Shown: one piece after another, positions 8,616 to 32,306 of the stretch
How positions within the stretch are numbered: the first letter of the stretch is position 1
Layout of the letters: each line of letters begins with the position of its first letter
Assembly (NCBI GenBank): GCA_003210235.1
Contig: QCVV01000007.1
Span: 1-32,306, forward strand
Origin: Prochlorococcus sp. AG-686-O05
GTDB lineage: Bacteria > Cyanobacteriota > Cyanobacteriia > PCC-6307 > Cyanobiaceae
Length of the DNA: 32,306 nt
Direction: 5' to 3'
Notes under the pieces: model-generated
Databases searched by the model: none
What the model saw: the letters and a program-made list of their open reading frames with translations, nothing else
What the model was told of the DNA's origin: nothing
Made by a program: the position numbers and the translations under genes

Positions 8616-9305
8616 GTGTTATTAAAGCAAAAGCTAAGATATATTTTTAATATTTTTGCTCATAAATTAAATAATTCCAGTAGACCCCCTATATTAGTTT
8701 CATCAATGGGTAGAGCTGGCTCTACTTTATTGTTTCAGGCAATTATGAAAAGTTTAGCTATAGATAGATTCCCTTATTTACCATTAAGTATTTCGCGTTT
8801 ACTTTGCCATGGAACAATGTGGTTCCCTGGTTATAAATTGTTCAAAGGACTTGTGCATAAAACACATGTTCATGGATATGATTTTCCTAATGATACTAAT
8901 ACAAAAATTATCTATGTATTTTGTAAGCCAAGTGATTCAGTCCTATCTGTTATTAATACGAAATCGAGAAGAGGTAAGGGATGGATAAATGAGCATTTTC
9001 ATAATCTAAAAGTCAATGGTAAATTTGAAGATCTACCGTATAGAGATGTTTTGAGATTAGAGGATCACTTGAAAGGATGGTTATCAAAAAAATCTGTGAA
9101 TATTTTGTTTATAAGATATGAAAATATATGGGAGTACAAGAATGAAATAGAAGAATTCTTAAATTTAAAAATAAATTTACCAGAGTTTAAATTAAGAAGA
9201 GAACTTTCTGAGGAAGCAGAATCTTTTAGAGATATTTGTAAAAAAAATTATGCTGAATTTGATAAGAAAGTTGATAAAATTCCTAATTTTAGTATCTCAA
9301 ATTAA
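8616..9305 (+). CDS. Sulfotransferase-fold P-loop protein
   Basis: 229 residues starting with GTG at 8616. The segment PILVSSMGRAGSTLL (25-39) matches the 5'-phosphosulfate-binding loop of PAPS-dependent sulfotransferases, and IYVFCKPSDSVLSVINT resembles the 3'-phosphate-binding strand with its serine. IRYENIWE resembles the later conserved RYEDL motif. It is shorter than most carbohydrate sulfotransferases (250-300 residues). Its stop overlaps the ATG of the flippase gene by one base (TAATG), so the two are co-translated. It probably sulfates a surface glycan, or is a related P-loop transferase. Sulfation activity is inferred from the fold only. Confidence 0.6.
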   Translation: MLLKQKLRYIFNIFAHKLNNSSRPPILVSSMGRAGSTLLFQAIMKSLAIDRFPYLPLSISRLLCHGTMWFPGYKLFKGLVHKTHVHGYDFPNDTNTKIIYVFCKPSDSVLSVINTKSRRGKGWINEHFHNLKVNGKFEDLPYRDVLRLEDHLKGWLSKKSVNILFIRYENIWEYKNEIEEFLNLKINLPEFKLRRELSEEAESFRDICKKNYAEFDKKVDKIPNFSISN

Positions 9306-10797: not shown

Positions 10798-11502
10798 TTA
10801 GATATCTAAACATGGACTTCCCTTTAATAATTTATCTGAGACTTTTTTATCTCTTTTGATGAGCCTTAATACTATGCCCATTCTCCCTTTTTCTATTGAT
10901 GTGGCAGCAGCAGATCCATGAATTAAGGCTGAATGAAATACTATAAAATTTCCATCTTTTATTTCCAAACTTTTTGAATTTTTATCGTAGTCAAAGTCCT
11001 CAATTATTGGTTTAAAGTGGTCTTTTTTACTTTTTAGATGTGAAGGGCTTATATTCCTTTTAATTTCACTACTTTTTACCGAACCTGGAATATATCTAAA
11101 AATACCTGTTTGTTTATCAATATTAGATATAGCGATTAATAAAGAAATATGAGTACCTATTTCCCTAAAGTCTATATCTCTATCATTTTCTTGAAAATGT
11201 TTATCATGATGCCAATTAATTCCCTTATAGGGAAATCCAGGCCTTTTGTAAAATATATTACTTCTCCAGATTTTGTATTTTTTATTATTTGTAAAATTTG
11301 AGAGGGTATCCTTTAAAACTGGATCCTTTATTAGTTCTTTTAAATGTTTACCTAGGAAATTACTATGCCAATTTGCTGCCGTACCTCCTCTCCAATTTGA
11401 TAGTAATAATTTTGTTCTCCAGTTTTTTGATATAAAACGGGATAACTTTTTTCCAGAATCGCTTAATTCAATAGGGCCGCAAATTTCTTCGTTGTTTATC
11501 AA
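10798..11502 (-). CDS. Phytanoyl-CoA dioxygenase-like Fe(II)/2-oxoglutarate oxygenase
   Basis: 234 residues with the full 2-His-1-carboxylate facial triad: His98-x-Asp100 in NWHHD, distal His195 in LIHGS, and a 2-oxoglutarate-binding Arg213 in VLRL. Family features FRYIPGS (135-141) and GNFIVFHSALIHGSA (184-198) are present. PhyH-family enzymes hydroxylate lipids, amino acids or modified sugars. In this context it may oxidise a glycan or lipid-anchor precursor, but the substrate is unknown. It is isolated on the minus strand, convergent with the flippase and divergent from the SGNH gene. Confidence 0.78.
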   Translation of the reverse strand: MINNEEICGPIELSDSGKKLSRFISKNWRTKLLLSNWRGGTAANWHSNFLGKHLKELIKDPVLKDTLSNFTNNKKYKIWRSNIFYKRPGFPYKGINWHHDKHFQENDRDIDFREIGTHISLLIAISNIDKQTGIFRYIPGSVKSSEIKRNISPSHLKSKKDHFKPIIEDFDYDKNSKSLEIKDGNFIVFHSALIHGSAAATSIEKGRMGIVLRLIKRDKKVSDKLLKGSPCLDI

Positions 11503-13643: not shown

Positions 13644-15380
13644 ATGTATTTAGGAATATCTTGTTATAACCATGAATCTGCAGCTGCTTTGATAGATAAT
13701 AATGGTAATTTAATAAATTATTATAGGGAGGAATCTCTTAGTAGAGTTAAAAGTGATAAGTCCTTTCCTAAAAGATCTATAAAAAAGATTTTTGAAGAAA
13801 ATAGTCTTAATACGGAAAATATTAGATCAATATGCTTCTATGAAAAACCTCTTAGTGCTTTTTTAATTCCATTAAAAACTGCTTTGAAACATATACCAAA
13901 AAGCTTAGATTTAATTTCTAATCAATTTCGAAACTTTGATAAAAGTTCACTTTCATGTTATTTAGATATTTCAAGAAGTTTTCCTGGTCTAGAAAATAAA
14001 ATACTATACGTTGATCATCATCTTTCTCATACATTAACGGCATTAGTTTATTCACAAAAAAAAAATAATTTATGTTCTTTAGTAGTTGATGGTTTTGGGG
14101 ATAGAAGTACAACTTCTATCAGTTTTGTTAATAGTCCATATGAAATTAACGAACTTTGGTCTTGTGATTATCCTGTATCTTTAGGTTTATTTTATTCTGC
14201 AATAACAGATTTTTTAGGATTTCAAGTAAATGAAGGAGAATTTAAAGTAATGGGTTTAGCATCATATGGAAATAGTAATAGTAAAATCTCTAAAAAAGTT
14301 TCAAAATTACTTTATTGGGATGATAAATATAAAAAAATCCAATTAAATATGGATTTTTTTGATTATCATGTTTCTCTTGAGAATTCTTTCAGTCCAAAAT
14401 TAAAATCTTTGATAGGTGAACCAAGAAATCCTTTTTTACCTCTTAAATTAAATGATAAAAATTTTCAACATTATGCAGATATTGCTGCTGGAGCTCAAGA
14501 AGCAATAATAAATATACTTTTAAATCTTTTTGAATATTCGTATCAAATAACTGGCTCTAGAAACTTTCTCTTTTCAGGTGGCGTAGCTATGAACTCTGCC
14601 TCTATTGAGAAGATTGCAAAACTTCCATTTATCGATGAAATTATAATTCCACCAAGTCCAGGAGATGCAGGATCAGCAATTGGAGCGGCATATTATTCAT
14701 TTCTTAAATGTAATAAAAACTTTTCAAGTAAAATCGTTTTACCAAAATTGTTTCCATCTATCTATAGTTATAATAATCAAAAAAAGCTTACAAAAAAAAT
14801 TATTAGTAGAAATTTTGAAAAAATAAGCGATAGGATGGATGAATCTTATAAAAAGGTGGGAGAATTGATTTCTTCTGGAGAAGTTATTGGGATTTCAGTT
14901 GGCAATTCAGAAACAGGTCCAAGAGCTTTAGGTAATAGATCTTTAATATGTGACGGTTCTAATCATGATGCAGTTAATTTTCTTAATACATCAATAAAAA
15001 ATAGAAGTCCCTTCAGGCCAACTGCTCCCTGCATGCAATTAAATATCGCAAAAAAATATTACGAATTGCAGCCAGCTTTAATGCAGGCATATAAATCAAT
15101 GGGGGCAACTTGTAGATGTAAAAATGGTACAAATTCTAATAGTTTCCCTACAAGTCATGTTGATAAAACAGCAAGAATACAGATAGTTGAAAAAGACACA
15201 ATCTTAAATGACCTTTTAGAAATTCTTAAAAAGTATGATATTGAAATACTTGCAAATTCATCTTTAAATTTGAGTGGCGACCCTACATGTTTTGACTTAA
15301 TAGATGGTTTAATGGTTTGTGCCAGAAGTCCCTTAAGATACATACTTACAGACTTTGGATTGTTTAAAAGTAAATATTAA
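13644..15380 (+). CDS. NodU/CmcH/TobZ-family O-carbamoyltransferase
   Basis: 578 residues, normal for the family. The N-terminal ASKHA-fold domain starts with LGISCYNHESAAALI and has the metal- and carbamoyl-phosphate-binding DHHLSH at 124-129. The later YrdC-like part carries GNSETGPRALGNRS, the conserved GPRALGNRS signature, with FRPTAP after it. Enzymes of this type transfer carbamoyl from carbamoyl phosphate through carbamoyl-adenylate to a hydroxyl group of a sugar or antibiotic. It is followed after 3 nt by a DUF5989-like small membrane protein, a recurrent partner. A run of ten A at 14056-14065 lies inside the coding region and could promote slippage. Confidence 0.93.
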   Translation: MYLGISCYNHESAAALIDNNGNLINYYREESLSRVKSDKSFPKRSIKKIFEENSLNTENIRSICFYEKPLSAFLIPLKTALKHIPKSLDLISNQFRNFDKSSLSCYLDISRSFPGLENKILYVDHHLSHTLTALVYSQKKNNLCSLVVDGFGDRSTTSISFVNSPYEINELWSCDYPVSLGLFYSAITDFLGFQVNEGEFKVMGLASYGNSNSKISKKVSKLLYWDDKYKKIQLNMDFFDYHVSLENSFSPKLKSLIGEPRNPFLPLKLNDKNFQHYADIAAGAQEAIINILLNLFEYSYQITGSRNFLFSGGVAMNSASIEKIAKLPFIDEIIIPPSPGDAGSAIGAAYYSFLKCNKNFSSKIVLPKLFPSIYSYNNQKKLTKKIISRNFEKISDRMDESYKKVGELISSGEVIGISVGNSETGPRALGNRSLICDGSNHDAVNFLNTSIKNRSPFRPTAPCMQLNIAKKYYELQPALMQAYKSMGATCRCKNGTNSNSFPTSHVDKTARIQIVEKDTILNDLLEILKKYDIEILANSSLNLSGDPTCFDLIDGLMVCARSPLRYILTDFGLFKSKY

Positions 15381-19277: not shown

Positions 19278-21164
19278 TCAATTTAAATATATTATTTTCC
19301 CCTCTGATGGAGTCCCTGATTTAGTTATAGCGAAAATCATGTATGTTCCATCCTGTAACTCATTTTTGTTTTTTGGAATATCAACTAGGAATTCATTTTT
19401 GTTTATTTTAGAGAATTGTAAAGATCTGAATTTGGGCTCTGATCCCTGAGCATGTGTGGTACTTCCAGTAGAAATTATTGTAAATTTTCCAATATCAATA
19501 GGATAATCTTTATTTAATTTAATTTTTAATATTCCTCTCTTGATAGATGTATTTATATTTTCTATTTTAGGCCGCTTAGCTAGAACAGTTTTATCTTCCC
19601 AGTCTTTATTAAATAGGTATGGAGGATAAAATACCTCTGAATTCCATACGTCTCCTCCAGATACTAAAATTGTTCCATTAGGTAAAAGAAGAGATGTACT
19701 ATGGTAATTCCTTCTGAAATAACCCTTGTCCATTAATGTAGATGTTTCATTAAAAGGATCATATATCTCACCTTTGTAGTGGCTAAATTCTAGATCTTTA
19801 TAAGAGGAGCCTCCATTAATAAAAATCTTTCCATCAGGAAGTATTGTAGCGTTAGCATTAAATCTTGGCATTAGCATATTATTCGCTTCATAGATTTTTG
19901 GTTCTCTACTATTGCTAAAATCTATTTTTATTACTTTATTGGAGCCTGAGTATTCTTCACCATACTGTTTCCCTCCGAATAAATAAACAATATCTTTTCC
20001 TATCATGACTGTTGAATTGTATGCTCCAACTGGACTCCCTATTGTTAAAAGTCTCAATTTCCTTATGTCATTGTGACCCTTTTGATGAATATGTGCATCT
20101 TGTTCCTTATTCATATTAATATCATCTATTACTCCTGAAATTCCACCAGTTTCTAATTTAATCTCGTTTGTTTGAAAAACCCTGAAGTCATTATTTTTCT
20201 CCATCACCCAAACTTTATTATAAGAAATTCCAACTATATTACCGTCAGATGATAAGTAACTTCTAGGATAATTCCATTCCTCATTTGTACCGTTGGGTTC
20301 ACCAAATAAATTATTACTCGAAGCTTTATAGAGAGGTCGCCATCCATTTTCAAAATTATTTAAATCTAATATTTCAGGAGTTATACTCGGATTTGAATTT
20401 ACATGATCTGTTCCACCAATTAGGACTAATTTATTATCAGAAGTTCTAACAACAGATGCGTACCATCTTTTGTAATTAAGATTTTTACTTTTAGTAAATT
20501 TCTTTTCTTTGATGTTATAAATCATTGTTCCTGCTTGAGTATCAGGAAGGCTTGTATTCATATTTTTGTTTCCACCTATAATCAATAATCTTTCATTATC
20601 TATAACTCGTAAAACTGAGCAAAACGAATCCATTACAACTGGCTGCTTAAAAAGTGTATGTGAATCTTCTGCAAACCCTTGTTTAAAATCCCAAATATCA
20701 AAATCTATTCCACTGTTAACATCATGACCAATCCATTGATGAAGACCGTCATCTCTTTTTAAGTTTCTACCATCAGTTATTTTAATTTTTTTATTTTTAC
20801 GTCGATCAATTTTTTCTTTATCATCTATACCATAGGTGCCAAAAGTCATTACAGAATAGTCAGGAAGTAAAATTGAATGAATTGCAGTTACATTCCAATC
20901 TATAGGAGCTGACCATTGCCCAATTTGATTTGCATCATTATTAATTTTAATATCATTTAAGTTATACTTTGCTAATTCCTTATTTGACATCTTGAGAGGA
21001 TTTACCAAAAATCTACTAGTGTGATGATTATCTACATGCTTCTTTATTTTTTCTCTAGCGGAATAGATATTTAATAAGGAACTAAATAAGATAATTACTA
21101 AAGAAATAAAACCTGAAGTAAAAATTAATATTTTAAAAATAAGTTTATATTTTTTATTCATCAA
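19278..21164 (-). CDS. Membrane-anchored copper-radical-oxidase-like protein (glyoxal/galactose oxidase fold)
   Basis: 628 residues. An N-terminal membrane anchor (about 8-32) is followed by a Kelch-type seven-bladed propeller with repeated GG-containing strands (IIGG, LIGG, LFGG, INGG) and a C-terminal DUF1929-like domain after YPPYLF (513-518). The copper-radical oxidase residues can be matched: Cys182 in DSFCS and Tyr235 in RWYAS for the Cys-Tyr cofactor, axial Tyr487 and ligand His488 in RRNYHS, and ligand His571 in TTHAQGS. Known members oxidise primary alcohols or aldehydes with O2, releasing H2O2, outside the cell. A surface-glycan alcohol is a plausible substrate here. Spacings are close to those of glyoxal oxidase. 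Activity is not proven. Confidence 0.78.
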   Translation of the reverse strand: MMNKKYKLIFKILIFTSGFISLVIILFSSLLNIYSAREKIKKHVDNHHTSRFLVNPLKMSNKELAKYNLNDIKINNDANQIGQWSAPIDWNVTAIHSILLPDYSVMTFGTYGIDDKEKIDRRKNKKIKITDGRNLKRDDGLHQWIGHDVNSGIDFDIWDFKQGFAEDSHTLFKQPVVMDSFCSVLRVIDNERLLIIGGNKNMNTSLPDTQAGTMIYNIKEKKFTKSKNLNYKRWYASVVRTSDNKLVLIGGTDHVNSNPSITPEILDLNNFENGWRPLYKASSNNLFGEPNGTNEEWNYPRSYLSSDGNIVGISYNKVWVMEKNNDFRVFQTNEIKLETGGISGVIDDINMNKEQDAHIHQKGHNDIRKLRLLTIGSPVGAYNSTVMIGKDIVYLFGGKQYGEEYSGSNKVIKIDFSNSREPKIYEANNMLMPRFNANATILPDGKIFINGGSSYKDLEFSHYKGEIYDPFNETSTLMDKGYFRRNYHSTSLLLPNGTILVSGGDVWNSEVFYPPYLFNKDWEDKTVLAKRPKIENINTSIKRGILKIKLNKDYPIDIGKFTIISTGSTTHAQGSEPKFRSLQFSKINKNEFLVDIPKNKNELQDGTYMIFAITKSGTPSEGKIIYLN

Positions 21165-26428: not shown

Positions 26429-27460
26429 ATGAGGCTTAAAAGTACTACAAGATTTGGCCTTTACAAAGATCTTTTAAGTTCTTCAAATTATTTTAAATTA
26501 GTTTGTGGCGCAGGGAACGAGGACAAAAACGAAGTAGAGTTTTTAACTTTTGTCTACACCTTAGCTGGATGTGCTGGTTTTGACGTCTCTGCGAGCCCAG
26601 AAATTGTTGATTCTGCTAAAAAAGGGATTAATCTAGCTATTGAAAAATCATTTGAACTTGGAATAGAAATACCTTTTATCCCTTTTATCACTGTTAGTGT
26701 AGGGATGCCGGGAGATCATCATGTTAGAAAAGCCATAATAACAAATGATTGTGTTTCCTGTAATTTATGTATACCTACATGTCCTACAGATGCAATTCCC
26801 GACAATTTAATTATTACTCGTGAATTATGTATAGGTTGCGGTAATTGTGAAGCAGTTTGTCCTCCAGCGGCAAATGCAATAAAATATGAACATAATTCTA
26901 AAGAGCTATTAACAATTTTACCTAAATGTGTTGAAGCAGGTGCAGAAAGTATTGAACTCCATGCAGGAGTTCCTGACGATAGTTCAACAGTAAAAGAATG
27001 GAAGATTGTCTCTGAATCAGTTCCAAATGGAATGATATCTATGTGTTTAGATAGAAAACATTTAAGCAATGATATGCTTATAGAAAGAATAAAAATTGCA
27101 CAAGAAATTGCAAATGATAGATTAATAATTCAAGCAGATGGAATTCCAATGAGTGGAGGAGTAGACGACTTTAATACAACATTACAAGCCGTATCAATAA
27201 CTGACTTTATAAATAAAGAATTGAAAAATAAATATCCAAAATTTAAAAAATTACCCATTCTTATTTCAGGCGGAACAAATTCTTTTACCGGTCAATTAGC
27301 TAGACAATGTAAAGTAAAATTTAATGGAATAACAATTGGTACTCATGCTAGAAAAGTAATATCTAGTTTCTTTTCAAGGCCAGCAGATTTTAAAAAAGAT
27401 AAACTCCTTTTTGCTATAAATAATGCAAAAAAGTTAATAGATATGAATTTATATCATTAA
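26429..27460 (+). CDS. LdpA-like protein with two [4Fe-4S] clusters
   Basis: 343 residues with the three-part plan of cyanobacterial LdpA, a redox-responsive circadian-input Fe-S protein. The N-terminal domain has YFKLVCGAGNED and FVYTLAGCAGFDVSASPEIV. A ferredoxin-like region has Cys108/111/114/118 and Cys134/137/140/144 (two CxxCxxCxxxC motifs, each followed by Pro). The C-terminal domain has IQADGIPMSGG (234-244) and ILISGGTNSF (277-286), then GITIGTHARK. Its first cluster motif is a regular ferredoxin type, unlike the spaced cysteines I recall for clock LdpA, and it sits in an island with sugar-acid genes. It is therefore more likely a specialised paralogue than the clock protein. The C-terminal GGT region suggests a phosphate-binding barrel, which is inference. 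Confidence 0.75.
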   Translation: MRLKSTTRFGLYKDLLSSSNYFKLVCGAGNEDKNEVEFLTFVYTLAGCAGFDVSASPEIVDSAKKGINLAIEKSFELGIEIPFIPFITVSVGMPGDHHVRKAIITNDCVSCNLCIPTCPTDAIPDNLIITRELCIGCGNCEAVCPPAANAIKYEHNSKELLTILPKCVEAGAESIELHAGVPDDSSTVKEWKIVSESVPNGMISMCLDRKHLSNDMLIERIKIAQEIANDRLIIQADGIPMSGGVDDFNTTLQAVSITDFINKELKNKYPKFKKLPILISGGTNSFTGQLARQCKVKFNGITIGTHARKVISSFFSRPADFKKDKLLFAINNAKKLIDMNLYH

Positions 27461-27466
27461 ATTAAA

Positions 27467-28318
27467 GTGAAAAAAAAAATAAGATTAAATAATTTAGAAA
27501 ATCATTATCAAAATAGATTTAATAATTCTAGATTTTACAAACTAAATTTAAGTAAAACCGAAGAAACAAGCAATATAAAATCTAATCTAGTTGTTATTTC
27601 ATCGTTAATAGGTTTTTCTGCTATCTCAATATCTTATGATATTCAAGAATTTAAGAATATTCGATTATCAATCGAAGAAGCTAATATTAAATCTAAATTA
27701 TTGAAATTAGATGAGTTTATATCTCCCTTGATTTTCTGCCGTTTAAAGATTTCAATGTTCAAAAAAAATCAATTTAATGATTTATTAAATAAAATAGAAA
27801 TTCTAAATAAGCTAAATATATTTTCTATAGAATTTGATTTAGACTCAACAGATCAAGAATTTATAAAAAATATAATTCAAATTGCTTATGAGAATTTTGT
27901 AAATAAATCAATTTCCTTAATAATAAGTAGAAAAATAATGAGTAATGCCATTATTATTGATACTATAAAAAGTATCAGAGAAATAGTACAAAATGACTTA
28001 ATAGTTGAAGTTGATGGAGTCTCCTCGCATACTGATAAAAATGAATTTAATAATACTCTTCAAACTATCTCTACTGCGGATATTTTAAATAAACAATTAA
28101 AACTTACTAGTCCAAAATATAATAGAATTCCTTTAATACTGTCTGGGGGTACAAATATTGCTACTGCTAAATTTGCTGATCAGTGTGGTGTTTTGTTTAA
28201 TGGGATAAGTTTTGATATTTCTTATTTTAGAGATTTAGATAATAATTTTATGGAATGTATGAATAGTAAAAGTAAGCTTAAGGTTCTGACTAGTAAATTA
28301 AATAATTTATTTTTATGA
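27467..28318 (+). CDS. LdpA-like paralogue lacking the Fe-S region
   Basis: 283 residues starting with GTG at 27467, six nt after the previous stop. The C-terminal half aligns closely with the upstream gene: VEVDGVSSHTDKNEFNNTLQ against IQADGIPMSGGVDDFNTTLQ, and ILSGGTNIATAKFADQCGVL against the GGTNSF segment. The N-terminal part aligns more weakly (LVVISSLIGFSAISISYD). The segment holding both CxxCxxCxxxC motifs is missing in frame; the reading passes from a FISPLIFCRLKISMF stretch directly to the next helix. It looks like a duplicated subunit that lost its clusters. Ten A follow the start codon (27470-27479), a possible slippage site. It could pair with the Fe-S protein. Confidence 0.68.
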   Translation: MKKKIRLNNLENHYQNRFNNSRFYKLNLSKTEETSNIKSNLVVISSLIGFSAISISYDIQEFKNIRLSIEEANIKSKLLKLDEFISPLIFCRLKISMFKKNQFNDLLNKIEILNKLNIFSIEFDLDSTDQEFIKNIIQIAYENFVNKSISLIISRKIMSNAIIIDTIKSIREIVQNDLIVEVDGVSSHTDKNEFNNTLQTISTADILNKQLKLTSPKYNRIPLILSGGTNIATAKFADQCGVLFNGISFDISYFRDLDNNFMECMNSKSKLKVLTSKLNNLFL

Positions 28319-28364
28319 ATTATTTAAAAATATAAAAATTAAAGTATTTTCATTATTATTTATT

Positions 28365-29102
28365 ATGAGAAATTTTTTATTGATCATACCTGCGCGTTTG
28401 GATTCTACTAGATTACCAAAGAAACTTTTGTTGGATATAGAGGGTATAAGTATTCTTCAAAGAACATATAATTGTGCTTTAAAAGCTTTAAAAGATAAAG
28501 AAAAAATTTTAATAGCGACAGATTCAATTGAAATAAAAAAACATTGTGAAAATTTCGGAGCTAAAACATTGATAACATCAAAGGATTGTCTTACTGGAAC
28601 AGATCGAATTGCTGAAGTTTCTCAAATAATTGAAGCAGAACAGTATATAAATTTGCAAGGGGATGAGCCTATTTTTCCAAGTTCCCAGCTATCATTATTT
28701 ATTGAAAAAGTATCTTTAGATCCTTCTAATGTTTATACTGCGGTTACAAAAATTAAAAAAGAATCAGATTTTAGAAATCTATCAATACCTAAAATGGTTT
28801 TTTCAAATAGTAATAAATTACTTTACTCAAGCAGAGCCCCTATACCCTCGAGTAAGTTAGGTTCTTTTAGTTTTGGTTATAAGCATGTTTGTGTTTATGC
28901 ATTTAATAAAAATCATCTTTCAATTTTTAAAAGTTATAATAGTAAAACTAAATTTGAATTACAAGAAGACTTAGAAATAAATAGATATTTAGAATTGGAT
29001 ATCAATGTTAAATGTATTGAATTAGAAGAATGTGGGAAGGCAGTTGATACAGAAAGCGATTTTATGGCAGTTGAAAAAATTATTAAATCTAGTTCAATTT
29101 AA
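28365..29102 (+). CDS. KdsB-like CMP-keto-deoxy-sugar-acid cytidylyltransferase
   Basis: 245 residues, the normal length of CMP-KDO synthetase. Motifs in order: IPARLDSTRLPKK (8-20, the CTP-binding loop), TSKDCLTGTDRIAEV (71-85), NLQGDEP (96-102, metal-binding Asp100), YSSRAPIP (154-161), KHVCVYAF (173-180), ELQEDLEINRYLE (198-210) and VDTESD (227-232, second metal-binding Asp228). All catalytic motifs are intact. KdsB activates KDO with CTP. Marine picocyanobacterial lipopolysaccharide has been reported to lack KDO, so another 2-keto-3-deoxy acid is a reasonable alternative. No KDO-8-phosphate synthase or KdsD is visible in the window. The stop overlaps that of the convergent aldolase gene by 9 nt. 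Confidence 0.85.
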   Translation: MRNFLLIIPARLDSTRLPKKLLLDIEGISILQRTYNCALKALKDKEKILIATDSIEIKKHCENFGAKTLITSKDCLTGTDRIAEVSQIIEAEQYINLQGDEPIFPSSQLSLFIEKVSLDPSNVYTAVTKIKKESDFRNLSIPKMVFSNSNKLLYSSRAPIPSSKLGSFSFGYKHVCVYAFNKNHLSIFKSYNSKTKFELQEDLEINRYLELDINVKCIELEECGKAVDTESDFMAVEKIIKSSSI

Positions 29103-29825
29103 CAAATTAAAATAATTCTGATACTCTTCTTTCAATTTCAATGCTAGTTGGGAAGTATCTACTGATGCTACCGGGAAGTGAACTCCTATTTTAAAAAGTA
29201 TTTCTAATTCCTCTATATTTCTATATATTGCAAGGACTTTTTTATTAAATTGATTCGCAAATTTAACTATCAACTTTAAGTTTTCTATAATTTCAGCGTC
29301 AAAGATATCGCCTTGTTTTAATAATTCTACTGATAAGTCGTAAGCTCCAAAATATACAAAATCAACATTTTTATTACTTATTAGCAATTTGGAATTTTTT
29401 ATACCTAACTTAGATTCAATAAGAATTCCTATTGAAGGATCTTTAACTGTAATTTTCTCCATCCCATATTTATTTCTAGGAACAAATGGAGAAAAACTTT
29501 TATTACCTTTCGGATAAAGTAAACTTTGATTTATAATTTTTTCTAAATCTAATTCAGTCTCTATATGTGGGAAAAGAACTGCATCAACTCCTGTATCAAT
29601 TATTTGTACTATATATTCATATGAGCATGAAGGTAGCCTTGCAATCGTGAAGATTGAAGATGCTTGAGACGAAAACACGCAATTTTGAATAGTTTGAGGA
29701 TTAAGAAGACCATGTTCAAGATCTAATAAAGTGATCTTAAATCCTGCTTTTGCAATAATATCAGTAACTATACTCGAATCTAAAATCTGCCAGATGCAAA
29801 GGCCATTAACTAAATTCTTAATCAT
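29094..29825 (-). CDS. HpcH/HpaI-family class II pyruvate aldolase
   Basis: 243 residues, a typical length. LLDLEHGLL (33-41) contains the catalytic His38 region, IARLPS (61-66) the substrate-binding Arg63, GVDAVLFPHIET (79-90) the following strand, ILIES (134-138) metal ligand Glu137, and YFGAYDLS (158-165) metal ligand Asp163. All expected active-site residues are present. Family members reversibly add pyruvate or a related enolate to an aldehyde, giving a 2-keto-3-deoxy or 4-hydroxy-2-oxo acid. With the neighbouring phosphatase and cytidylyltransferase it could build the acid that is then activated. It is separated by 98 nt from the HAD gene and may have its own promoter. Confidence 0.82.
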   Translation of the reverse strand: MIKNLVNGLCIWQILDSSIVTDIIAKAGFKITLLDLEHGLLNPQTIQNCVFSSQASSIFTIARLPSCSYEYIVQIIDTGVDAVLFPHIETELDLEKIINQSLLYPKGNKSFSPFVPRNKYGMEKITVKDPSIGILIESKLGIKNSKLLISNKNVDFVYFGAYDLSVELLKQGDIFDAEIIENLKLIVKFANQFNKKVLAIYRNIEELEILFKIGVHFPVASVDTSQLALKLKEEYQNYFNLLN

Positions 29826-29923
29826 AATTATTTATTAATTAAATGAACTCTACTAAAAAACAAAATTTATTCATAATAAATAATCAATTTTTAAAGTAAA
29901 TTTTCAGTTTTGTAAAATATTAA

Positions 29924-30679
29924 TTAATCAATATTAACTTCTGAAAGATTTGATATTGAATACTTACATATTTTCATTAAATCACATAAGGGTATTTGCC
30001 CAGTTGCCACAAGGATCGATCCTTTCAAATCAGCTTTCTTAGAAAATTCGTAATCAACTGGCGCGTCTCCAATAGCAATTACATTTTTTTTATTTATTTG
30101 CATCTTCTCGCAAAGGTAATTAGCGGGAATTCCTGTTGCTTTCTTTCCTATCTTATTATCGCCTCCTATTATAAATTCAAAATAAGATTCAATATTAAGT
30201 TTTTTGCAAGCCTCTTGAGCATTGTGAGTTGTATCACTAGTAAGTAAACTAATTTTTACATCGCGTTGATGAATTTTTTTGATAAAGTCCACACATTCAT
30301 CAATAGGTTTAATAAAGCTATCAGATATGGCTGTAAAATTTTTATGTACTTCAACAAAAATTTCTTCAATTTCTGCAACCGAGGATTTAATACCTATTTT
30401 TCTAAGATCTTCAATTAATTTATCAATAACTTCTCTTCTCGTTACAAGGGCAATTGGTCCTTTAGGTAATAATTTTTGAGTAATCGGATTTAAACCCATA
30501 AATCTTGACACTTGAGTATACTTTTCCATATCAATTGAAAATCTTTCACAAATAAGTTCTGTTCTCATGGAAATAATTTTTGACCAATAAATATGTGAAT
30601 CAGTTAAAGTTCCATCCTTATCAAAAATAATGCCTTGAATATTTTTTAAGTAAAAGTTATTAGCCTTTAAATTAATCAT
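29924..30679 (-). CDS. HAD-superfamily phosphatase (phosphoglycolate phosphatase-like)
   Basis: 251 residues. Motif I is IIFDKDGTLTD (nucleophile Asp20, general acid Asp22), motif II is LLTSDT (Thr147 or Ser148), motif III Lys179 in IGKKATG, and motif IV IGDAPVDYEF with Asp205 and Asp209. A helical cap lies between motifs I and II (about 35-115), which places it in the capped C1 type and not with the capless KdsC (KDO-8-phosphate phosphatase). It probably removes phosphate from a phosphorylated keto-acid sugar or an aldehyde precursor. It starts 4 nt after the upstream aldolase-like gene, so the two are co-transcribed. Confidence 0.82.
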   Translation of the reverse strand: MINLKANNFYLKNIQGIIFDKDGTLTDSHIYWSKIISMRTELICERFSIDMEKYTQVSRFMGLNPITQKLLPKGPIALVTRREVIDKLIEDLRKIGIKSSVAEIEEIFVEVHKNFTAISDSFIKPIDECVDFIKKIHQRDVKISLLTSDTTHNAQEACKKLNIESYFEFIIGGDNKIGKKATGIPANYLCEKMQINKKNVIAIGDAPVDYEFSKKADLKGSILVATGQIPLCDLMKICKYSISNLSEVNID

Positions 30680-30683
30680 TTAA

Positions 30684-31478
30684 CTATTTGCTTATCCTTT
30701 TATTAATTGTAGAAATCCTTAGGTTTTCTTCCTCGGAACGAGATAAATACATCTTTCTTTTGAAATTAAGCCAGCTTAGTTCAAACTTTAATCCCATCTC
30801 TATTATTTCGGAAAACTCACTCTTATCAATAATATTCAGGTATAAAAAAGTACATTTTCTTGATTCAAATGCTTTAATTTGATTTTCAGTATAGTTCTTC
30901 AAAAAAACATAACTATCTTTAGTTAAATTGCCTCCAATTGTAACTTCGATATTATTTTTATTGCATAGTTCTATGATTTTTGAACTTTCATTCAAAATAA
31001 TTTCTGAATTTACATCTTTTAGACCTAATGATTCTGCTAGATCTGAACGACCAATAACGATATTTCTTATTGGTAAAGATAGTATTTTTATCTTATCGAT
31101 AATGTTTCTAAAGTTCTTGCAACCAGTAATGCTTTCAATATTGATTGATAATGAGGGTATTTTATTAAGCGATTTAAAGTCTTTTGCAAAATCATTGAAA
31201 GATTGACAACAATTTTCTAAAGCATAATCTGATTCAATCATTGGTACTAATATATTATCCGCACCAAGTTGAAAAGCCTCATAAAAATCCCTTTTTGCCG
31301 AGGCACCTCCTATTTTAAGAGTCAAAGGTATTTCATTTTTAGTGCATAAATAAGAAAGAATAGAAAGTTCATCAATTCTTGTACCCTCTGCTTCAAATTC
31401 AGCCTTTATTGCTAATAATGAATTTGAAGATTTCAAACTTAATAGATTTTTTTCCAGTTCAGATAAAAGAGAATTCAT
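30684..31478 (-). CDS. HpcH/HpaI aldolase-like protein with intact metal site
   Basis: 264 residues. The central part carries the hallmarks of the HpcH/HpaI/CitE TIM-barrel family: INIES (112-116) with metal ligand Glu115, and IVIGRSDLAESLG (140-152) with metal ligand Asp146. Upstream are LKIGGASAKRD (54-64) and LVPMIESDYA (77-86), which replace the usual D/LEH segment, so this is a distinct subfamily and not a standard HpaI. KAEFEAEGTR near the N-terminus may give further acidic ligands. The tandem gene at 31485 is a paralogue without these ligands. It likely cleaves or forms a C-C bond next to a carboxylate; the substrate is unknown. Confidence 0.68.
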   Translation of the reverse strand: MNSLLSELEKNLLSLKSSNSLLAIKAEFEAEGTRIDELSILSYLCTKNEIPLTLKIGGASAKRDFYEAFQLGADNILVPMIESDYALENCCQSFNDFAKDFKSLNKIPSLSINIESITGCKNFRNIIDKIKILSLPIRNIVIGRSDLAESLGLKDVNSEIILNESSKIIELCNKNNIEVTIGGNLTKDSYVFLKNYTENQIKAFESRKCTFLYLNIIDKSEFSEIIEMGLKFELSWLNFKRKMYLSRSEEENLRISTINKRISK

Positions 31479-31484
31479 TTTAAA

Positions 31485-32255
31485 TTATGCTTTATTTAGG
31501 AAATCTGTAAGGTGCTTTTCTCGTATATTGAGATAATTGTGTTTCTTTACAATACATTTATTCATTAGGCTTAAAATTTCTTTTTCTAAAACTTGTAATC
31601 TATTAATTTGTTTTATTAAATTTGAATCTAATTCTCCAACTCTTATTGTAAATAGTCCTGTCTTGATGTAATCAGGGGAAATTCCATAATCACTTAAATT
31701 GATAATTGACTTTTGTGTAATTCCTCCAGAAATTGAGTATAAAAACTTGCTTTTCTTAATAAGCGCTACCTTTTTACTAATTATATTATTTATTTTTTCT
31801 TCAAAATTATCGACCTCAAAATTATTATTATTTACAAGCTTTGTTGATATTATGATGGATCTGCGATCAAAATTAAAAATTAAATTTTTTCTACTAATAA
31901 ATTTTGGAATTTCTAAATTTTGAATATCATCAATCATTTCTAAACCCATTTTTGAAGAAATATTAATAAAACATTTTTTTGAGCCTAATAAATTTTGGTC
32001 TGTTAAGAAAGTTTTTTCTAGAGCATTAAAAATTTTCTTAATTGCAAAAATTGATTCAATAATAGAAAATTCATATGCTTCCACGAAAAGACTTTTCGAC
32101 TCCTGAAGATCTCTTATAGATTCGGCTCCCCCAATCATTGAACATAAATTAAATTTATTTGATCTTGCATAATTGCAAAGCATCAAAATATCATTGAAAC
32201 TCAGGTCAAAAATATGATCATTGGTATTCAAGAAAACTTCTGATCTGAAATGCAT
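31485..32255 (-). CDS. Aldolase-like paralogue without metal ligands, probable non-catalytic subunit
   Basis: 256 residues, first gene of the reverse operon, 6 nt before its paralogue. SMIGGAESIRDLQESKSLF (39-57) and SIIESIFAIKKI (64-75) align with IGGASAKRDF and PMIESDYALENC of the next gene, and ISGGITQKS in its C-terminal part aligns with IGGNLTKDS. At the metal site, however, INIES has become INISS (Ser100 for Glu) and GRSD has become NFDR (Arg131 for Asp). Both metal ligands are thus lost. A scaffolding or allosteric subunit with the intact paralogue is the simplest reading. Any standard database match may be weak. Confidence 0.6.
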   Translation of the reverse strand: MHFRSEVFLNTNDHIFDLSFNDILMLCNYARSNKFNLCSMIGGAESIRDLQESKSLFVEAYEFSIIESIFAIKKIFNALEKTFLTDQNLLGSKKCFINISSKMGLEMIDDIQNLEIPKFISRKNLIFNFDRRSIIISTKLVNNNNFEVDNFEEKINNIISKKVALIKKSKFLYSISGGITQKSIINLSDYGISPDYIKTGLFTIRVGELDSNLIKQINRLQVLEKEILSLMNKCIVKKHNYLNIREKHLTDFLNKA

Positions 32256-32306
32256 ATTATTTAAACTTTCTGTTAGATATTAATTTAGGATATAATCAAT
32301 AAGAAT

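Follow-up and report, generated by a model that had tools for sequence, protein, structure and literature searches.

The seven genes at positions 26429–32255 of the window (the whole stretch of 32,306 nucleotides that was analysed) form a cassette whose constant part is LdpA1, not the LdpA1/LdpA2 pair. There is about an even chance that this cassette belongs to a glycan island and supplies a surface glycan with a keto-deoxy sugar acid, which it would build by a route other than KdsA/KdsC and activate with CMP; LdpA1 would be its signature enzyme. The cassette, which occurs in ocean cyanobacteria, other microbes, and viruses, joins a relative of a circadian-clock Fe-S protein to sugar enzymes, and the clock-type gene seems to be absent from its cyanobacterial carriers, which suggests that the LdpA family consists of enzymes.

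The seven-gene cluster

All seven ORFs are intact and are arranged in two convergent gene groups that meet in a 9-base overlap between their terminal genes, which lie on opposite strands. The features are listed in Table 1. This arrangement is as the earlier note had described it, and the paralogy it had seen within the LdpA and HpcH pairs is borne out by profile comparison. The contig ends at 32306, thus genes past hpcH2 fall outside view. The complete set of seven families is also found together in two other genomes, G130 (L050 = L070) and G318 (L052 = L074), and six of the seven are found together in G275 (L053). The grouping exceeds chance, as it recurs in these genomes.

Table 1. Features of the seven-gene cluster and the evidence for their assignment.
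Feature	Position	Strand	Evidence
LdpA1, predicted Fe-S TIM-barrel protein, 343 aa	26429..27460	+	PF12617 LdpA_C 39.5 bits (cut-off 22.2), Fer4 domains
Ferredoxin-like insert of LdpA1, after barrel strand 3	26732..26866	+	eight Cys: residues 108, 111, 114, 118, 134, 137, 140, 144
LdpA2, LdpA1 paralogue without Fe-S insert	27467..28318	+	hhalign 100%, E 6e-44 to LdpA1; no Pfam hit
KdsB-like CMP-sugar synthetase (cytidylyltransferase)	28365..29102	+	PF02348 (CTP_transf_3) 126.7 bits
HpaI-type class II pyruvate aldolase	29094..29825	-	PF03328 (HpcH_HpaI) 59.0 bits (cut-off 25)
HAD phosphatase, nearest phosphoglycolate-phosphatase type, not KdsC	29924..30679	-	PF00702 85.9 bits
HpcH1, HpcH/HpaI family, both putative metal ligands (E115, D146)	30684..31478	-	PF03328 37.9 bits (cut-off 25)
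HpcH2, degenerate HpcH1 paralogue, putative metal ligands lost	31485..32255	-	hhalign 98.6%, E 8e-16 to HpcH1; no significant Pfam hit

Recurrence of the cassette in cells and viruses

The relatives of LdpA1 were taken from the best 80 of 149 matches, of which 51 (L099–L149) were dropped that cover only 37–158 residues around the ferredoxin part. The cellular set of 32 loci consists of the window, L070–L098, L053, and L200, and up to 10 kb was inspected on each side. The 31 other cellular loci (45–79% identity) belong to several phyla. LdpA1 relatives were also identified in 10 viral contigs (44–49% identity).

A CMP synthetase is found near LdpA1, together with a HAD homologue, in 21 of the 32 cellular loci (among the matches listed) and in 6 of the 10 viral loci. 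HAD homologues as such are near LdpA1 in 24/32 cellular loci (among the matches listed) and in all 10 viral loci; that of L076 is weak and lies 6 kb away. As a control, 20 of 20 neighbourhoods of resident LdpA from the same genus are without CMP synthetase, HpaI, HpcH, or HMGL. The earlier note had let its reading depend on the families occurring together elsewhere, and the aldolase, phosphatase, and CMP transferase do recur with LdpA1 across phyla. The fixed seven-gene pathway it had drawn is not supported, as LdpA2, HpcH2, and HpaI are optional and the unit is modular.

The aldolase partner of LdpA1 is of HpcH type in 22 loci and of HMGL type in 12, and both types occur together in none of the 42 loci (among the matches listed). 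The chance of this zero overlap is 2.4e-5 (41 loci, without L200), a value that serves as a guide only since the loci are not independent. Both versions occupy the same chromosomal site in genus g39, where one has been swapped for the other. The gene order HMGL-LdpA1-HAD-HpaI-KdsB is exhibited by six MAG loci of several phyla (L079–L083 and L090), and an HMGL aldolase takes the place of the missing HpcH pair in six non-cyanobacterial MAG loci whose operons are complete. A search of eight genomes whose LdpA1 is solitary or of HMGL type, run without a positive control, found no HpcH1. L075 was scored as HpcH-type without HMGL; the contig begins with its KdsB-like gene, and an HMGL gene could be missing through truncation.

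Eleven cellular loci are without CMP synthetase, and six of them are truncated by a contig end on one or both sides. The five with two flanks are L076, L077, L084, L086, and L087. Three of these (L084, L086, and L087, from freshwater picocyanobacteria) carry LdpA1 alone; L085 and L088 are of the same kind and are cut by the contig end. L076 and L077 carry LdpA1 with HpcH1 and HpcH2, and such loci would be expected if LdpA1 and HpcH1/HpcH2 (or HMGL) were a unit of their own whose product, a building block such as a keto acid or aldehyde, enters several routes to sugars (CMP sugars; ThDP/RfbH branched sugars), with HAD, HpaI, and KdsB as a separate adjoining module. We regard this alternative as unlikely. 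It is also favoured by three genomes (G224, G285, and G205; 99, 59, and 83% complete) that carry LdpA1, HpcH1, and HpcH2 and give no match to the window HpaI, and by four viral loci with a ThDP enzyme beside LdpA1 and HpcH and no CMP synthetase, three of which also have an RfbH-like gene. In L060 and L066, relatives of HpcH1 without LdpA1 have ThDP genes as neighbours, in L066 also RfbH and an AroB-like gene. However, the joint presence of HAD and CMP synthetase with LdpA1 in the cellular and viral loci counted above argues against a separate supply unit, as do five viral and two SAR11 loci in which hpcH, ldpA1, HAD, and CMP synthetase genes form a tight string without HpaI.

Fold and conserved residues of LdpA1 and its paralogue

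The AF2 model of LdpA1 (pLDDT 88.4, pTM 0.87) shows a TIM barrel, (beta-alpha)8, into which a ferredoxin-like domain for two clusters is inserted. LdpA1 passes the LdpA_C domain and is thus a member of the LdpA superfamily by the domain test. The score against the LdpA_Fe-S-bd domain PF25160 is 27.1 bits in the window (cut-off 27.6) and 28.7 in viral L150, and that against the clock-LdpA model NF045992 is 123.7 bits, under the cut-off of 450. The structural search gave matches to DERA, ribulose-phosphate epimerase, class II FBP aldolase, and OYE, and the 50 VIA rows listed span Z 16.1–17.3; these denote the fold class only and function was not read from them. One match is presumably MfnB. The motif SGGT/GTHAR in LdpA1 is a pattern that we take to be reminiscent of a flavin site, and such a site was considered as a candidate.

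The eight Fe-S cysteines are identical in 28 of 28 LdpA1, in 20 of 20 resident LdpA, and in 30 of 30 LdpA above the NF045992 cut-off. Sixteen putative pocket residues, chosen after looking, are all identical in the 20 resident LdpA. Fifteen of them are identical in all 30 LdpA above the cut-off, and R100 in 29. Four residues, E190, R220, Q253, and S280, do not vary within LdpA1 and are replaced in both other groups. The putative pocket residues are placed by the LdpA1 model in predicted barrel strands or just after them, not in the Fe-S insert alone.

LdpA2 has lost the Fe-S block. No cysteine was found at the eight columns in 6/6 LdpA2, and 36 of 96 pocket cells are kept, most pocket residues being altered.

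Comparison with resident LdpA

LdpA1 and clock LdpA (NF045992) share the LdpA_C family and the eight cysteines. Among 41 examined positions, 29 are identical in all 30 over-cut-off LdpA and 30 in all 20 resident LdpA, and the overall identity of LdpA1 is 25–30% to the former and 30–39% to the latter. The two differ in gene neighbours and in NF045992 score, which is 119–157 bits in 10 LdpA1 relatives and 285–297 bits in 10 resident LdpA. Both bands are under 450; since all 10 picocyanobacterial resident proteins thus fall short of it too, the division between LdpA1 and resident LdpA rests on the score bands, the tree, and the neighbours. The tree places the 20 resident LdpA on one side of one branch (100/100, length 7.0). 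LdpA1 as a misplaced resident LdpA was rejected, since the resident LdpA are split off by that branch and the neighbours differ. The LdpA1 of L093 joins the long resident branch, with a long-branch warning, and a placement of LdpA2 was not obtainable. A gene beside resident LdpA is HAD-like by eye in two examples (L191_17 and L186_17), and HAD neighbours are therefore not confined to the cassette.

Resident LdpA is absent from the 10 cassette genomes searched, six of which are less than 93% complete; each has a single NF045992 match, which is LdpA1. In two complete genomes (G275 and G237), the conserved resident locus, flanked by ndhN-like and recA-side genes, is empty. A match was obtained in 149 of 197 cassette-free genomes of the genus, against no resident genes in G000, G127, and G130. 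LdpA1 may therefore serve the role of the missing resident LdpA too. These absences, together with the pocket residues common to LdpA1 and resident or clock LdpA, would also be consistent with LdpA1 being primarily a replacement of the resident protein in the same reaction or sensing role, acquired on an island and followed by loss of the old gene, with the sugar genes as fellow travellers or users of the same activity. This is distinctly unlikely, as LdpA1 is found in viruses, SAR11, and other non-cyanobacteria and lies within sugar operons. LdpA may also have been lost by lineage, as no g39 genome without LdpA1 was seen and six of the ten genomes fall short of 93% completeness.

A bolder reading, with somewhat less than an even chance, is that LdpA is a widespread family of Fe-S TIM-barrel enzymes and not a dedicated clock sensor. 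LdpA1 would perform a hitherto undescribed redox step in a pyruvate-aldolase route to CMP sugar acids, would have been spread by glycan islands and viruses, and would be able to replace resident LdpA, which would have been lost where LdpA1 is present. Clock LdpA would be a recruited or dual-use relative with a nearly whole catalytic site.

Aldolases, phosphatase, and CMP synthetase

E115 and D146 of HpcH1, which we take to be metal-binding residues as in HpaI, are invariant in 10/10 sequences. Alignments read by eye show the glutamate lost in 7/8 HpcH2 and the aspartate in 8/8. HpcH2 gives no PF03328 hit, though its profile matches HpcH1 and its model (pLDDT 89) is HpaI-like, with HpcH/HpaI aldolases as top PDB matches. 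The best PDB relative of the HpaI-type aldolase is 2-dehydro-3-deoxyglucarate aldolase 4tv5, and the solved-structure relatives of the cluster aldolases act on keto-deoxy acids or pyruvate. The aldolase shares family and closest solved structures with the HpaI/YfaU/GarL class II pyruvate aldolases and differs from them in missing all four listed equivalog cut-offs. The HMGL-domain protein that replaces the HpcH pair in other lineages has about 540 aa. It shares its HMGL domain with the 4-hydroxy-2-oxovalerate aldolase DmpG (TIGR03217), but in L079 it scores below the cut-off of that model (91.9 bits against 286) and its C-terminal half is without Pfam match.

The HAD protein has phosphoglycolate phosphatases as best PDB relatives and scores 21.5 bits against the KdsC model TIGR01670 (cut-off 106.95), so it is not of KdsC type. 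The KdsB-like protein passes the NCBIfam KDO cytidylyltransferase subfamily NF003952 (203.5/193) and its best PDB relative is KDO cytidylyltransferase 1gq9. It fails NF009905 (239.3/255), TIGR00466 (115.2/155.2), and NF003948 (137.4/281).

The cluster shares a HAD phosphatase and KdsB-type CMP activation with the KDO pathway (KdsA, KdsC, and KdsB). It differs in its HpaI/HpcH aldolases, in its HAD not being KdsC, in the additional LdpA1 and LdpA2, and in KdsA, which was not found. KdsA (TIGR01362) gave no match in eight cluster genomes at E 0.001, and 9 of 14 controls matched, including E. coli and S. elongatus. No match over the KdsC cut-off was found in the same eight genomes, and two weak matches lie below it. 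For G000 this is weak evidence, as that genome is only 63.6% complete. A conventional kdsA/kdsC set elsewhere in the genome, which the earlier note had named as part of what would speak against its reading, is not supported by these searches. An ordinary KDO cluster is thus disfavoured by the KdsA, KdsC, and KdsB tests, though the relatives of the KdsB-like protein in L073 and L079 score above the cut-off of the TIGR00466 equivalog.

It is highly improbable that ordinary KDO is made through another aldolase route with LdpA1 as a redox regulator. The NF003952 match and the two relatives that pass TIGR00466 speak for it, and a review (PMC13421787) describes clock LdpA as a redox sensor. Against it stand the equivalog results in the window and the absence of KdsA, the barrel position of the predicted pocket, and the published statement that cyanobacterial LPS is without KDO (PMC4515613).

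The nonulosonic acid pathways (NeuB, NeuA/PseF) share the keto-deoxy acid logic with the cluster, and the synthetase of viral L150 is nearest to PseF, under the cut-off (60.8/205.7). They differ in NeuB (PF03102), which is not among the seven cluster genes and gave no match in G000. A classical nonulosonic acid cluster was rejected, as the set has no NeuB. Outside the set, 7/8 cluster genomes do have NeuB, and the copy in G130 shares a contig with the cluster.

Proposed pathway

Going by the enzyme families, pyruvate and a phosphorylated aldose would be joined by a metal-dependent aldolase (HpaI and/or HpcH1; HMGL/DmpG-like elsewhere), and not in a PEP-dependent reaction as with KdsA or NeuB. 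The HAD enzyme would then strip the phosphate, and the KdsB-like enzyme, often PseF/NeuA-like in SAR11 and viral cassettes, would form the CMP sugar. LdpA1 may catalyse a redox step on a phosphosugar or keto-acid intermediate, with its clusters passing electrons to the barrel. LdpA2 and HpcH2, whose cofactor or metal sites are lost, may be non-catalytic partners of LdpA1 and HpcH1. The claim in the earlier note of a CMP-activated keto-deoxy acid made outside the KdsA/KdsC route is supported in its recurrent gene content and in the missing KdsA and KdsC and is not supported in the fixed set of seven; we infer the sugar-acid product and the LdpA1 reaction.

Glycan islands, viruses, and the wider LdpA family

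That the genes adjoin merely through a shared hypervariable glycan island is very improbable: the island beside argF and lexA does have varying gene sets, and LdpA1 of L076 (= L054) lies near metK, kinase, and DUF520 genes, but the HMGL-type order is kept in six MAG loci of several phyla and hpcH-ldpA1-HAD in 8/10 viral loci, with a ThDP gene inserted in the other two.

A survey of 11,264 genomes calls LdpA exclusive to cyanobacteria (PMC5520375), and the 2026 review calls the mechanism by which LdpA controls CikA abundance unknown (PMC13421787). The findings in this work extend the wider LdpA family, not clock LdpA itself, to Betaproteobacteria, Acidimicrobiales, SAR11, one archaeal MAG, and viral contigs, mostly in sugar operons. 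One set of pocket residues is common to this wider family, and picocyanobacteria with the cassette form are without the resident form. A search of titles and abstract openings found no treatment of the LdpA1 cassette. By the proposed pathway, some picocyanobacteria and the hosts of the operon-bearing viruses should carry an unusual acidic sugar, which would be relevant to phage attachment.

No LdpA1 match was found among 50,697 named phage records at 1e-5, and PHROGs gave a weak ferredoxin match only, for viral L150. L094, titled Flavobacteriales, was counted as cellular; it is probably viral because its LdpA1 nests among viral LdpA1 and its gene order equals that of L155.

The seven-gene cluster and its surroundings

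The cluster consists of seven intact ORFs in two convergent groups at 26429-32255 of the window, and the contig ends just past it at 32306. The families assigned, in gene order, are LdpA_C with ferredoxin domains, none, CTP_transf_3, HpcH_HpaI, HAD, HpcH_HpaI, and none significant. The two proteins without an assigned family, LdpA2 and HpcH2, were recognised by profile comparison as paralogues of their neighbours, LdpA1 (the LdpA-like Fe-S protein) and HpcH1. The earlier note had described seven genes in two operons meeting tail to tail, and the ORF list, family searches, and profile comparisons show this description to be correct.

The HpcH2 model is a confident TIM barrel with HpcH/HpaI aldolases as its top PDB matches. 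HpcH1 keeps Glu and Asp at positions that we take to correspond to the metal-binding residues of HpaI. In HpcH2, Glu is gone in 7/8 and Asp in 8/8 (alignments read by eye in both cases). The window thus carries two pairs, LdpA1/LdpA2 and HpcH1/HpcH2, each with one intact and one degenerate member.

Aldolase, phosphatase, and CMP transfer form the standard logic for keto-deoxy acids, and the cluster follows a variant of the logic seen in known CMP-sugar-acid cassettes. The HpaI-like protein is nearest to keto-deoxy-acid aldolases. The KdsB-like protein is nearest to KDO cytidylyltransferases and scores under the equivalog cut-offs, which its homologues in L073 and L079 pass. The absence of KdsA claimed from the window extends to all eight cluster genomes searched, single-contig G275 among them, and no KdsC was found over the cut-off in these eight. 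NeuB is present in seven of them, always outside the cassette. Cyanobacterial LPS is described as free of KDO in one abstract (PMC4515613).

The assembly of the window's genome (G000) is incomplete (63.6%, 1.09 Mb). The window starts with argF (OTCase) and lexA at 303-1905, and this pair flanks the variable glycan island both here and in genomes G130, G275, and G237. The window also has further glycan-type genes, namely glycosyltransferase, flippase-like, carbamoyltransferase, sulfotransferase, and PhyH genes. The last three are possible decorators of a glycan.

Coordinates of features in the window and in related loci
Feature	Coordinates	Occurrence	Remarks
534-538 aa protein near LdpA1	L053:4838-6451, L073:7828-9438, L078:11049-12665, L200:7794-9398	four picocyanobacterial loci	
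Empty resident-LdpA locus	L239:12746-14188 (G275), L247:3477-4882 (G237)	two complete genomes with LdpA1 cassette	
Distant HpcH1 relative adjoining ThDP enzyme	L060:7633-10250, L066:9534-17473		
Carbamoyltransferase, sulfotransferase-like, PhyH-like genes	window 13644-15380, 8616-9305, 10798-11502	same island	
Kelch/galactose-oxidase-like protein	window 19278-21164 (-)		Glyoxal_oxid_N, GO-like_E_set; inside island

Distribution of LdpA1 and HpcH1

LdpA1 was matched by 152 of 200 sampled genomes of the genus at 1e-10. The best E-values of 149 of those genomes lie between 3.6e-27 and 3e-12 and come from resident (clock-type) LdpA, 30-39% identical where listed. The cassette form is found only in G000, G127, and G130 among the 200 sampled, with the latter two at 78-79%. 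At family level, LdpA1 at E < 1e-60 is present in 15/400 genomes, and in 5/250 good ones. HpcH1 is present in 26/300 family genomes: six close (>40% identical, G000 included), 19 distant (30-37%), and one partial.

Among the best 80 of 149 matches, taking one genome per species, 29 full-length LdpA1 relatives (L070-L098) were identified at 45-79% identity, and the closest named relatives of the gene are in Prochlorococcus single-cell genomes. Viral contigs hold ten further relatives (44-49% identity). According to a survey from 2017, LdpA is found in cyanobacteria exclusively; the statement refers to clock LdpA (PMC5520375). A literature search that covered few subscription papers returned no LdpA-family member described in a CMP-sugar-acid cassette or outside cyanobacteria.

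Gene neighbourhoods of LdpA1

The comparison of neighbourhoods covered 42 loci, of which ten are viral and 32 cellular (the window, L053, L070-L098, and L200). The seven families recur as one set in part: all seven are present in the window, L070 (G130), and L074 (G318). L053 (G275) has six, with LdpA2 alone missing. L072, cut at LdpA1, has LdpA2, HAD, both HpcH, and another synthetase, without HpaI. The order HMGL-LdpA1-HAD-HpaI-KdsB, in which HMGL is a DmpG-like aldolase, is exhibited by L079-L083 and L090 from Nitrosomonadales, Acidimicrobiales, Microthrix, Chloroflexi, SI034, and Rhodocyclaceae MAGs. HMGL, KdsB, and HAD lie close to LdpA1 in L073, L078, and L200. L091 starts at LdpA1, and rearrangement or a cut affects L089, L092, L093, and L098.

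The viral and SAR11 loci share hpcH, ldpA1, and a small HAD gene. To these is added a PseF/NeuA-like synthetase in L094, L096, L097, L150, L151, and L154-L156, and HpaI with KdsB in L157, whereas L152, L153, L158, and L159 have a ThDP enzyme in the vicinity. L095 is cut after HAD. L094, titled a Flavobacteriales MAG, is probably viral, as its gene order and LdpA1 are almost identical to those of viral L155. The hpcH-ldpA1-HAD string is found in SAR11 single-cell genomes (L095-L097), and two of these, L096 and L097, add the NeuA-like synthetase. Apparent HisF, HisH, and amidotransferase genes (by eye) come after the string in L096.

A CMP synthetase lies in the examined stretch of 21/32 cellular loci (9.5 kb off in L075) and 6/10 viral loci. 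Six of the 11 cellular loci without it are truncated at one or both ends (L071, L085, L088, L089, L095, and L098); it is absent from L076, L077, L084, L086, and L087 though both flanks are present. The control set, 20 stretches of 19.5 kb around resident LdpA, contained no CMP synthetase, HpaI, HpcH, or HMGL (tblastn, 1e-6), and a weak HAD match was obtained in two of the 20 (blastp, 1e-5). In the two stretches read, L191 and L186, the gene after resident LdpA is HAD-like by eye, though without a match to the HADs of the cassette. The HAD neighbour is therefore not peculiar to the cassette.

Exchange of aldolase types at one site

The 42 loci have either HMGL (12) or HpcH1 (22), never both; eight have neither. 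In genus g39, G275 (L053) and G237 (L200) share five genes on one side (53-80% identity) and five on the other (60-96%). The insert between these flanks is kdsB, hpaI, ldpA1, HAD, hpcH1, and hpcH2 in G275 versus ldpA1, another HAD, kdsB, and HMGL in G237. L078, whose position fits G300 of g39, has the G237-type insert with the same left flank and the first right-flank gene. LdpA1 (69% identical), the KdsB-type gene (39%), and a gene of 534-537 aa (37%) are kept across the swap. We read the two inserts as cassettes for related products. The 534-538 aa protein, for which the L073 member has no Pfam match, is perhaps a transferase for the cassette product.

Predicted fold and putative pocket of LdpA1

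The LdpA1 model, built from 28 sequences (pLDDT 88.4), consists of eight strand-helix units with the Fe-S insert after strand 3. Many TIM barrels match this structure with similar Z, which allows the fold class alone to be deduced. We compared 41 positions picked as constant or almost constant in LdpA1. The same residue is found at 30 of them in 20/20 resident LdpA, and at 29, eight of which are Cys, in 30/30 other-cyanobacterial LdpA over the clock-model cut-off (alignment without the S. elongatus protein; S. elongatus genome over the cut-off as control). The kept residues include K23, D52, S90, D96, H98, K101, E176, H178, Q235, D237, G281, G282, T283, N284, and R308; R100 is kept in 20/20 resident and 29/30 over-cut-off LdpA. 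Judged by the secondary structure of the model, most kept positions lie within or directly after barrel strands. This common pocket argues that LdpA1, resident LdpA, and clock LdpA descend from, and perhaps remain, enzymes. All eight Cys are missing in 6/6 LdpA2, which keep 36 of 96 cells at 16 pocket positions.

Absence of resident LdpA in cassette genomes

The clock-LdpA model matched 114/116 class-sample genomes at 1e-20, including all 105 good ones, with 70 over the cut-off. G000 and complete G237 were matched through LdpA1 only. Each of the ten cassette genomes (G237, G275, G300, G305, G224, G205, G285, G318, G130, and G127) has a single match at 1e-8, which is LdpA1. In related genomes, resident LdpA is flanked by an ndhN-like gene on one side and, on the other, by a HAD-like gene that precedes recA (names by eye). 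Single-contig G275 and G237 keep the ndhN-like/HAD-like/recA-like order with LdpA missing; about 200 bases with an apparent tRNA remain at the G275 site. In the window's genus, resident LdpA is present in 149/197 genomes without the cassette form and 0/3 with it, incomplete G000 among them. The absence may also reflect loss by lineage, since six of the ten cassette genomes are <93% complete, three are from one genus, and every g39 genome seen has LdpA1.

Settings beyond one pathway

Viruses also have LdpA1 and HpcH together with ThDP and RfbH-like genes, and other picocyanobacteria have HpcH1 relatives together with ThDP genes. Solitary LdpA1 (51-57% identical) is found in freshwater picocyanobacterial MAGs (L084-L088), where the stretch examined contains none of the cassette genes. 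These settings and the absence of resident LdpA count against one tight pathway as a full explanation.

We retrieved 13 of the 19 distant HpcH1 loci and searched gene families in L060 and L066, in both of which the HpcH1 relative adjoins a ThDP enzyme. The L066 stretch, which has no LdpA1, further contains RfbH (over the cut-off), genes resembling RfbF/G, and one resembling AroB (TIGR04425, under the cut-off). This set may represent a branched CDP-sugar pathway plus an unexplained HpcH protein. Several of L059-L069 have similar-sized ORFs around HpcH1 by length comparison only. Among the solitary cases, LdpA1 of L084-L087 is followed by a gene that resembles a response regulator (by eye).
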